The notes beneath the pieces were generated by a model. The model had not been told where the DNA came from. It searched no databases and was given only the letters and a program-made list of their open reading frames with translations. The position numbers were made by a program, and so were the translations under genes. A DNA stretch of 64,000 nucleotides, from NCBI RefSeq assembly GCF_900313065.1, contig NZ_OMPU01000008.1, positions 124,240 to 188,239 of the forward strand, read 5' to 3'. Positions within the stretch are counted from its first letter, which is position 1; every line of letters begins with the position of its first letter. This document shows, in pieces, positions 16,655-60,118 of the stretch. The DNA is from Kiloniella sp. EL199. Its GTDB lineage: Bacteria > Pseudomonadota > Alphaproteobacteria > Kiloniellales > Kiloniellaceae.

Positions 16655-16985
16655 GATATTACATAAACAGGCACAAGAATTGAAATATGCCTGCGCACAA
16701 AATAGCACGACCGTGTCAGATGATGAATTAAAGGCTATTCAACGTATTGATTGGATTGTGTCATCACTTGCAGACAAAGAGATCGAAAGTACAGTTGTGC
16801 TCGGAACTCATGTTACTCAGATGAAAAAAGACATCAGAAATCGGAAGTATGATGCGGATGAAAAACTATTTCATCAACTTCTTCACGATAACAAAAAGCG
16901 TTTGGAAAGTATAAGCCCGGATAGTCTTGTGCGTTATGTGCCGTTGTTGGAAGTTCCCGAATGTTTGCCCAAAAGAACGAAATGA
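16632..16985 (+). CDS. Small hypothetical protein overlapping the phosphotransferase gene
   Basis: A 117-residue, mostly helical, soluble protein with charged surfaces and no signal peptide. It starts with ATG 23 bases inside the end of the phosphotransferase gene, with GGGCGGGAG just upstream, so the two are co-translated. APH-type kinases of this group are often followed by a small helical partner of unknown role; whether this is a diverged member of that family I cannot tell from sequence alone. No catalytic motif is visible. Confidence 0.65.
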   Translation: MPVHKYAEILHKQAQELKYACAQNSTTVSDDELKAIQRIDWIVSSLADKEIESTVVLGTHVTQMKKDIRNRKYDADEKLFHQLLHDNKKRLESISPDSLVRYVPLLEVPECLPKRTK

Positions 16986-17048
16986 GCAACTCTGTAATAC
17001 ATTGATTGTAAATGGTTTTGTAGAATTTTGTTCTTATTTTATATTTTT

Positions 17049-17063
17049 GTTCTCTTTTTGTTC
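17049..17063 (+). promoter_or_regulatory. LexA box 1 (SOS operator)
   Basis: An exact GTTC-N7-GTTC (spacer TCTTTTT), the alphaproteobacterial LexA operator. It abuts the -35 element TTGACA at 17064. The same motif occurs in front of this genome's own lexA at 60090. Confidence 0.88.
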
Positions 17064-17092
17064 TTGACAGGGTGATGATCTTAAAGCATAAA
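17064..17092 (+). promoter_or_regulatory. Sigma-70 promoter of the SOS small-protein gene
   Basis: A perfect -35 TTGACA at 17064-17069, a 17-base spacer and a -10-like CATAAA at 17087-17092. LexA boxes lie immediately upstream and immediately downstream, so LexA would block polymerase on both sides. The gene's start codon is 45 bases after the -10. Confidence 0.75.
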
Positions 17093-17093
17093 T

Positions 17094-17108
17094 GTTCACA
17101 TATTGTTC
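17094..17108 (+). promoter_or_regulatory. LexA box 2 (SOS operator)
   Basis: A second exact GTTC-N7-GTTC (spacer ACATATT), placed over the expected transcription start and 45 bases downstream of the first box (start to start). Two perfect boxes on one promoter suggest tight repression and strong damage induction. Confidence 0.88.
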
Positions 17109-17136
17109 TTATGATGTCTAAGCTAAGGAGCCTGAT

Positions 17137-17262
17137 ATGCAAGACGAAACAAAAATGTTGGATTTTTTACTAAGCAGTTTAGTGGCGTTTGGTAGTTTCG
17201 GTTTTTTCTTGTTCGTGCTTTCATATGGGTGGTTGACGGCTTTTCAGGTTATGGCTCAGTAA
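17137..17262 (+). CDS. 41-residue SOS-controlled membrane protein (SidA-like candidate)
   Basis: A tiny gene of 41 codons, ATG to TAA, with a strong AAGGAG six bases before the start. The product begins with charged MQDETKM, has one hydrophobic segment at about residues 9-31 rich in Phe, Leu, Ser and Gly, and ends in a short polar tail (TAFQVMAQ). This predicts a single-pass inner-membrane protein. The promoter carries two perfect LexA boxes. In Caulobacter the SOS-induced division inhibitor SidA is a 29-residue single-pass protein that acts on late divisome proteins; size, topology and control agree, but sequence homology is not shown, so the function is inference. No sulA-like gene is in the window. 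Confidence 0.75.
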   Translation: MQDETKMLDFLLSSLVAFGSFGFFLFVLSYGWLTAFQVMAQ

Positions 17263-17354
17263 GTTTATATTTTTATTTTGACGAATATCTTAAAAGTAAG
17301 GCTAGAAACATTTAAGTTTTTCACGATAAAAATTGTATAGCTAATTTCACCACA

Positions 17355-17384
17355 CAAAGGCGCAGACAAATGTTTGCGCCTTTG
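17355..17384. terminator. Hairpin between convergent genes
   Basis: A 13-bp stem (CAAAGGCGCAGAC with GTTTGCGCCTTTG, one G-U pair, AAAT loop) between the SOS small gene and the convergent XRE regulator gene. The U-runs are short on both sides, so termination strength is uncertain. It most likely ends transcription from both directions. Confidence 0.55.
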
Positions 17385-17426
17385 CTGTAGTTGATAAATC
17401 AAAAATCAAGTTGATGTATCTTGAAA

Positions 17427-17897
17427 TTATTCCGAAGAATCAGGTTGGTCGCTGGTGACTTTGCCAAGTGTCTTTGCCATTTCTAAAAGCCGTTTGCGAA
17501 CTGTTGTTTCTTCAATTTTATAGTAAGCTCTGACAAGTTCCAGTGTTTCCCGCCTGGCCATTGGATCTTTTTGAAAAGGAAGCTCCTGGCCTTCTTCTGC
17601 CATGCCTCTGATTTGTCCAGGGGAACGATGGGAAACCTCATCAGTCATTTCATCAAAGAAATAGCCGACATCAATATCCAGTACGCGGGCCAGATCATAG
17701 AGGCGGCTAGCGCCAATACGATTGGTGCCACGTTCATATTTTTGTACTTGTTGAAATGTCAAGCCAAGTGCCTCGCCGAGTTTCTCCTGGCTTAAACCAA
17801 GCAGGGTACGTCGTAGCCTTAATCTTTGTCCGACGTGTACATCAACTGCATTGGGTACACCCGTAATTCTTTTTGGAAGTGATTTTTTATTTCTCAT
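17427..17897 (-). CDS. XRE-family regulator, PraR-like
   Basis: A 156-residue DNA-binding repressor. Residues about 16-75 form a helix-turn-helix of the Cro/CI type: VGQRLRLRRTLLGLSQEKL, then ALGLTFQQVQKYERGTNRI. This core is very like the PraR family of Alphaproteobacteria, which represses surface, biofilm and quorum-related genes; targets here are unknown. The C-terminal part is acidic then helical (ETLELVRAYYKIE). The open frame extends 40 codons upstream, but those codons lack coding character, so ATG at 17897 (MRNKKSLPKRITG) is preferred. It converges on the SOS small gene without obvious functional link. Confidence 0.85.
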   Translation of the reverse strand: MRNKKSLPKRITGVPNAVDVHVGQRLRLRRTLLGLSQEKLGEALGLTFQQVQKYERGTNRIGASRLYDLARVLDIDVGYFFDEMTDEVSHRSPGQIRGMAEEGQELPFQKDPMARRETLELVRAYYKIEETTVRKRLLEMAKTLGKVTSDQPDSSE

Positions 17898-18198
17898 GCT
17901 TAACCTTGATGGTTGCGATGGTATTTCTACTATACCGCTTTTTACACCCCCAAGTATTCGCCTGTGAATACCAATCAATAAACTATTAGTATAAAATAAA
18001 ATTCGATATTTTTTCAATGGATATTTAACTTGATGGAAATTTGTAACTAAATAGTGATCATAAATCAGTTATCTATTAATGAACTTATCTCATTCAGTTT
18101 AAGTGAAGTGCTAATCAAATTTCTTTGTGGGGAAGAATTATTTCCTAAGAATAATTTATATTTTATTCAAAATAATGGTTACTGTATGTGTTGCATAT
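17898..18198. other. AT-rich intergenic region
   Basis: About 300 bases of AT-rich sequence upstream of the XRE regulator gene and downstream of the small gene at 18199. I see no further gene, no LexA box and no clear operator. It probably holds the regulator's promoter. Confidence 0.5.
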
Positions 18199-59327: not shown

Positions 59328-60029
59328 TTAATTATAAGTTCTTAGTAGGCCGACGAGCTTGCCTTGAACTTGAACTCTACCAGCTTCGTAGGTTTTCGTT
59401 TCATAGGTAGCATTCGCTGGTTCTAGCTCAATTTTGCCGCTTTGACGTCTGACATGTTTAAGGGTTGCCTCTGCATTATCAACAAAAGCTACACCAATTT
59501 GACCATTTTCTATGGTATCACACTTTTTGATCAGCACTGTATCGCCATCAAGAATACCGGCCTCAATCATGGAATCCCCTTCAACGGTCAGGGCATAGTG
59601 ATCACCATTACCCAGAAGGTTTAGAGGAACATCGACATAGTTAGCTGGATCGCTCAATGCTTCGATAGGCGTACCAGCAGCAATTTTCCCATAGAGAGGT
59701 AGCTGAACAGTTTCATCAGATGATTGATTGGCTGCTTCAATGTTTTCGTTAAGCAAAGGATTATTTTTTGGATTTAAAGCATCATGCTCTTGAAGTTGTG
59801 GTACTGGCCCCAGATCTTCAGGTAATCTCAGTATTTCTACAGCACGTGCTCTGTGCGCAAGTCTGCGAATAAAACCGCGCTCTTCCAACGCTGTGATCAG
59901 GCGATGGATGCCTGATTTTGACTTTAATTCCAATGCGTCCTTCATTTCATCAAAAGAAGGCGAAACCCCGGTTCGGGTCAAGTGATCCCGAATGTAAAGC
60001 AGTAGCTCTCGTTGTTTCTTGGTCAGCAT
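59328..60029 (-). CDS. lexA: SOS repressor LexA
   Basis: Repressor of DNA-damage genes that cleaves itself when RecA filaments form. 233 residues from ATG 60029 (preceded by GGGGGAA); the frame extends 14 codons further but those are not LexA-like. N-terminal winged helix: LTKKQRELLLYI, SFDEMKDALELKSKSGIHRL. Self-cleavage Ala-Gly pair near residues 118-119 (KIAAGTP), catalytic Ser near 153 (EGDSMIEAG) and Lys near 191 (ATLKHVRR). A 35-residue Gln/Asn-rich linker is longer than in E. coli. A perfect LexA box overlaps its promoter, so it represses itself. Confidence 0.97.
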   Translation of the reverse strand: MLTKKQRELLLYIRDHLTRTGVSPSFDEMKDALELKSKSGIHRLITALEERGFIRRLAHRARAVEILRLPEDLGPVPQLQEHDALNPKNNPLLNENIEAANQSSDETVQLPLYGKIAAGTPIEALSDPANYVDVPLNLLGNGDHYALTVEGDSMIEAGILDGDTVLIKKCDTIENGQIGVAFVDNAEATLKHVRRQSGKIELEPANATYETKTYEAGRVQVQGKLVGLLRTYN

Positions 60030-60089
60030 TAAAATTCCCCCGAAATACAGAGTTGGGCTTCTGTAGAACAAAACAAAAACATATCTTTT

Positions 60090-60118
60090 GTTCTACTTTA
60101 GTTCTCGTTTCAGGTCAA
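60090..60118 (-). promoter_or_regulatory. lexA promoter with LexA box
   Basis: The exact operator GTTC-N7-GTTC (spacer TACTTTA) lies at 60090-60104. On the minus strand a -35 TTGACC (60113-60118), a 17-base spacer and a -10 TAGAAC (60090-60095) overlap it, so bound LexA blocks its own promoter. Confidence 0.88.

Follow-up and report, generated by a model that had tools for sequence, protein, structure and literature searches.

The closest described systems are small membrane proteins that are made upon DNA damage and act on late steps of cell division: SidA and DidA of Caulobacter, YneA of Bacillus, SosA of Staphylococcus, and ChiZ of Mycobacterium (PMC4211646, PMC13396833). SidA of Caulobacter crescentus is a 29-residue, LexA-regulated inner-membrane protein that interacts with FtsW (PMC4211646), and the LexA motif of Caulobacter is GTTC-N7-GTTC (PMC4211646, PMC12700426). 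DidA is a small membrane division inhibitor as well, but its induction is SOS-independent, via DriD, and it binds FtsN (PMC4211646). A LysM domain is present in YneA and ChiZ, and SosA has an extended region. From AlphaFold 3 models, which it describes as not of high confidence for SidA, SosA, and ChiZ, the YneA paper suggests that FtsW is a common target of such proteins (PMC13396833). Tiny membrane peptides under LexA also occur in E. coli, e.g., TisB and DinQ; both belong to the type I toxins, have antisense RNA partners and are made from processed transcripts. DinQ, a LexA-controlled 27-aa inner-membrane peptide, depolarises the membrane when overexpressed and had no effect on filamentation in E. 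coli (PMC3567139).

We analysed a stretch of 64,000 nucleotides (the window) from Kiloniella sp. EL199, in which a 41-codon gene had been predicted from the letters alone to encode a SidA-like division checkpoint protein. The predicted product resembles SidA in being a small protein, probably of the inner membrane and apparently under LexA control, in an alphaproteobacterial host with GTTC-N7-GTTC boxes; it differs in length (29 aa in SidA; here about 40-52 aa, according to which start is taken) and in that the division effect is known for SidA, whereas for the Kiloniella protein a role in division is hypothesised by analogy. With YneA, SosA, ChiZ, and DidA it would share damage induction and small size, but it has little beyond one helix and lacks the additional regions described for the first three. 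It is as tiny as TisB and DinQ, but no sign of their antisense RNAs and processed transcripts was seen at the Kiloniella gene. Our literature search found no paper on a damage checkpoint in Kiloniella or Kiloniellaceae, no paper on the small gene among the matches listed, and no expression data for it.

The gene, its promoter and its operators

The gene occupies positions 17137-17262 of the forward strand (ATG start, TAA stop included) and encodes 41 aa; an identical protein is encoded by Kiloniella majae. Its ribosome-binding site AAGGAG (17125-17130, forward strand; AGGAG invariant in 8 Kiloniella genomes) lies where the original prediction had placed it, as does the frame itself. The gene is a lone unit between a 117-codon frame upstream, which ends at 16985, and a helix-turn-helix regulator that converges on it from downstream (17427-18017, reverse strand; HTH_3, E 6.5e-14). 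This regulator shows 88-95% identity among three Kiloniella genomes, and its NCBIfam repressor/antitoxin matches were all under the cut-off. A strong hairpin between the convergent genes (17356-17383; folding z -5.05 for 17300-17400) is possibly a terminator common to both; by the rule of the terminator scan none was called in 16900-17450, this hairpin included.

Two exact GTTC-N7-GTTC boxes flank the promoter on the forward strand, as had been predicted. Operator 1 (GTTCTCTTTTTGTTC, 17049-17063), identical in the 8 Kiloniella genomes, abuts the -35 hexamer TTGACA (17064-17069), of which TTGAC is invariant in the same genomes; operator 2 (GTTCACATATTGTTC, 17094-17108), with both GTTC half-sites kept in 8/8, lies just past the probable -10 hexamer CATAAA (17087-17092). 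The predicted promoter was recovered in its -35 element and its 17-base spacing, but its -10 hexamer is a weak match, and a consensus promoter scan of 16900-17450 called no promoter (shuffles average 1.7). The 8 Kiloniella genomes share an unchanged 21-base block (TGTTCTCTTTTTGTTCTTGAC) amid diverged intergenic DNA, and outside the operators, the ribosome site and the frame there is little conservation.

The second operator was seen in two groups, and its arrangement differs between them. In Kiloniella it lies on the same strand, 45-46 bases downstream of operator 1, in 8/8 genomes. In family f162 (genus g239, L240-L248) it is inverted and starts 21 bases downstream, between -35 and -10, in 7/9 genomes, the remaining two having one mismatch; this offset equals two helical turns and falls within the promoter spacer. 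Double locking by two operators suggests that leaky expression is costly, as it would be for an inhibitor of growth or division.

The bare box by itself is not significant. It occurs 5 times in the window against 2.09 expected (4/100 shuffles reach 5) and at 131 places genome-wide against 186 for the reversed control pattern, i.e., without enrichment; it is conservation that raises the locus above chance. The composite GTTC-N4-TTT-GTTC-TTG is present as a single copy in the 4.18 Mb genome, at the site of the small gene. The same box form that the original prediction had noted before lexA was found at 60090-60104 (forward strand), upstream of the lexA frame (59328-60071, reverse strand; recognised by eye). 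We examined 23 box loci (20 picked from 100 listed of the 131 places and 3 already in hand; genes recognised by eye): the bare box also lies upstream of recA, where it starts 97 bases ahead of the ATG, and of umuDC and comM, and the remaining loci showed no clear SOS gene behind the box. A near-form of the composite, with GTTCTTA for GTTCTTG, precedes an umuDC-like operon in the window's own genome (L135), and in two Kiloniella genomes (L110 and L127) such an operon, again by eye, stands behind the composite promoter itself.

A conserved family of predicted single-helix proteins

The frame is under purifying selection. In its first 40 codons, variable sites among the 8 Kiloniella genomes fall on 6 first, 4 second, and 30 third positions (30/40 at third positions vs 10/80 at the others, Fisher p 1.3e-11), far from the random pattern that the original prediction had named as evidence against a gene. 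Across the 28 Kiloniella pairs dN is <= 0.108, and dN/dS is 0-0.09 where dS is unsaturated (6 pairs are saturated); 6 pairs within the sister genus g4 gave dN/dS of 0.04-0.13. Between the window genome and G007 the first 40 codons show 14 synonymous substitutions and no non-synonymous one.

AlphaFold2, run on 13 sequences, predicted one helix spanning residues 2-40 (mean pLDDT 89, pTM 0.46), in line with the one hydrophobic segment seen originally, and the protein is probably a single inner-membrane helix. The helix of the window protein is evenly hydrophobic, with a low hydrophobic moment (0.02-0.14); charges are few on both sides of it, and the window protein has no charged residue past position 9. 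S13 and G31 are invariant in 20 aligned sequences and G19 is kept in >= 90%; within Kiloniellaceae alone (13 sequences) A17, F21, F23, F24, W32, and A40 are invariant as well. Residues G19, F21, F23, F24, G31, and W32 form a likely contact face.

Homologues were found in 21/23 genomes of Kiloniellaceae but not in G005 (77% complete, 1.5 Mb) or in G010, which is 91% complete and in 750 contigs. Other families of the order, covered by 38 genomes, yielded no convincing homologue (best E 0.016); the matches obtained there (E 0.03-1.4 and E 0.016-0.09) fall within frames of 189-468 residues and were taken for portions of larger proteins. An evenly drawn sample of the class contained convincing homologues in 7/385 genomes, i.e., three of family f1, three of f142 and one of f162, with E-values of about 1e-13 (f142) and 3e-5 (f162) against a model built without those groups. 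Following these up, we found the gene in 4/4 genomes from the order of f142 and, among the matches listed for 120 genomes from the order of f162, in nine of genus g239 and in one of family f206 (G468; E 7e-7, model without it); the 88 genomes outside that listing may include members of g239 that gave no hit. A phylum sample of 299 genomes added no further convincing homologue. Altogether these are 35 homologues (21 + 4 + 9 + 1) from four groups of family rank within the Alphaproteobacteria. As a check on the most distant of them, the G321 protein was scored with a model that excluded its group and reached 28.3 bits, a score attained by 0/500 shuffles. Weak matches were set aside. Of those in the class sample (E above 1e-4), eight were inspected, and no box was present within 1 kb of any; inspection of G488 (E 0.0026), from the search in the order of f162, showed no box either. 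G544 (E 0.003, internal stop), from the latter search, G235/L257 (E 2e-4) and, from the phylum sample, G613/L260 (E 2e-4, internal stop) were not counted as homologues.

Operator 1, in the form GTTC-N4-TTT-GTTC-TT abutting the -35 hexamer, is kept in 35/35 homologues found, so that frame and upstream box, the joint conservation of which had been proposed as a check, have persisted together in related genomes; no case was seen of a kept frame with the box lost. On both strands of the 35 loci (106,849 bases) this form occurs 35 times and the looser GTTC-N7-GTTC 53 times; for a single gene, the probability that some box falls by chance within 200 bases on its strand is about 0.003.

No family in Pfam or NCBIfam matched four members at E<=1, no PDB chain matched the family profile at E<=1, and the best match in PHROGs had E 0.11. 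The window protein had no match in 50,697 phage records, and 72,556 plasmid records gave one weak match to a Sulfitobacter plasmid (E 3, with an f142 homologue as query); phage and plasmid origins were rejected. We conclude that these proteins form a new, unnamed family, with a single membrane helix and LexA-type control; as the original prediction allowed, they may be unrelated to SidA by sequence.

Neighbourhoods were compared for 11 loci, with genes named by eye. In Kiloniella the gene lies near a DsbA-type oxidoreductase, a phosphotransferase and the HTH regulator. The DsbA-like gene is common to Kiloniella and 2/3 f142 neighbourhoods (45% identity), and the third f142 neighbourhood has an mfd-like gene in common with one Kiloniella, so that the Kiloniella and f142 loci look vertically related. 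The g2/g5 loci lie near an outer-membrane efflux gene and a valyl-tRNA synthetase gene, and those of g4 and f162 in other genomic settings. Since the operator is kept in 35/35 loci while the neighbourhoods vary, the gene appears to be a self-contained unit with LexA-type control.

The composite promoter in other Alphaproteobacteria

By count of the listing, the composite occurs in 64/385 genomes of the class sample, at 87 places vs 11 for the reversed control. We examined 78/87 places for open reading frames (the other 9 comprise seven sites of the small-gene family or of the window genome's own kin and two read earlier). Behind the composite at L211 (G172), L212 (G363), and L226 (G108) is a short hydrophobic frame of 33-35 residues with a ribosome site, not recognisably related to the Kiloniella protein: 344 (L211), 17 (L212), and 48 (L226) of 500 shuffles reach their scores, and they were therefore not counted as homologues. 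L211 and L212 belong to family f123, and in both of them another box, in inverted orientation, lies at the start region; L226 is lost under a stricter hydrophobicity filter. A fourth small frame (L162), which overlaps a longer frame, was taken to be spurious. In f123, 3 of the 4 genomes searched carry the composite promoter, and at L261 (G827) there is no small hydrophobic frame behind it. These three cases, obtained with loose filters, suggest as a lead that one promoter is paired with different tiny membrane proteins.

Other genes also stand behind the composite. At L107 (G011) and L114 (G006), both in Kiloniellaceae, it is a radical-SAM gene (by eye, like relatives of DNA-photoproduct lyase), and at L114 the unit GTTCTCTTTTT is repeated. 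Genomes of family f44 (G220, G317, G093, G393) have two to eight composite LexA promoters each (L179-L182, L194-L206, L238, L239), several with near-identical sequence past the box.

Proposed division arrest and competing readings

LexA-type control, a conserved hydrophobic helix and the absence of a SulA match together make division arrest our best guess for the function of the gene. SulA was found in 0/23 Kiloniellaceae genomes by a search that was positive in the E. coli control, and four members of the new family had no match to the SulA family PF03846 (Pfam, E<=1). We propose, with a probability of roughly 0.55, that the gene encodes a LexA-controlled helix protein that arrests division at FtsW/FtsI/FtsN in the manner of SidA. 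LexA, presumably bound at the -35 region (operator 1) and the start region (operator 2), as the motifs suggest, would keep the gene off; upon DNA damage, activated RecA would promote self-cleavage of LexA and the protein would be made from its own short transcript. It would then insert into the inner membrane as one helix and might dock, by S13, A17, G19, F21, F23/F24, and G31-W32, onto one helix in the complex for septal wall synthesis (FtsW/FtsI/FtsN), holding that complex inactive until repair is complete. We count against the proposal the weak -10 hexamer, the bare box without genome-wide enrichment, the example of DinQ as a LexA-controlled membrane peptide that does not act on division, and the patchiness of the family (no convincing match in 38 genomes of other families, 7/385 in the class sample). 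Such patchiness would be unexpected for a general checkpoint, except where unrelated proteins take its place in other lineages.

The missing enrichment of the bare box, in the window as in the genome, would also fit a locus that is not a gene at all, i.e., a frame and boxes that arose by chance, or a small RNA controlled by LexA. Such a reading is extremely improbable in view of the third-position excess, of the homologues in other genera (g4 and g5, single-sequence search E 2e-13 to 2e-9) and of the operator present in every homologue found, and a chance frame is ruled out by the codon pattern together with the homologues. That the product is instead a peptide of the TisB/DinQ kind, which upon SOS induction lowers membrane potential and ATP and drives cells to dormancy, would agree with its size class, its single hydrophobic helix and its LexA-type control; we regard this as improbable, as the hydrophobic moment is low, no charge follows position 9 and the side chains are strongly conserved. 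Moreover, the 63-base leader and start stretch folds no better than shuffles (z -0.17), and no antisense partner is evident at the Kiloniella loci, where little is conserved outside the operators, the ribosome site and the frame. An unconserved antisense RNA may exist at the small gene; the Rfam scan of the window returned two tRNAs only.

Many known small proteins with one helix act by binding a larger membrane protein and tuning its activity, and by this precedent the family might be an SOS-induced regulator of some other membrane complex (a transporter, a respiratory enzyme, or a membrane protease) rather than of division. The conserved glycines and aromatic residues suggest one specific partner, and the patchy distribution fits an accessory role; however, the 11 neighbourhoods showed no gene shared by every group from which such a partner could be named, and we consider this reading unlikely, though a serious one.

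A broader interpretation, which we put forward tentatively and at slightly less than even odds as a whole, is that the new family serves Kiloniellaceae, and some other Alphaproteobacteria, as their division checkpoint upon DNA damage, a bare transmembrane helix acting on the septal wall synthase, and that in Alphaproteobacteria its promoter module (a LexA box fused to the -35 hexamer, sometimes with a second operator) has repeatedly been filled by unrelated tiny membrane helices, of which SidA is perhaps one. Genes of this length are short enough for routine gene calling to miss, and the common promoter signature would be a route to more proteins of the kind. If several unrelated helices took the same role behind the same promoter, this would indicate a shared vulnerability in the FtsW complex, and a septation blocker of one helix would be about the smallest possible division inhibitor.
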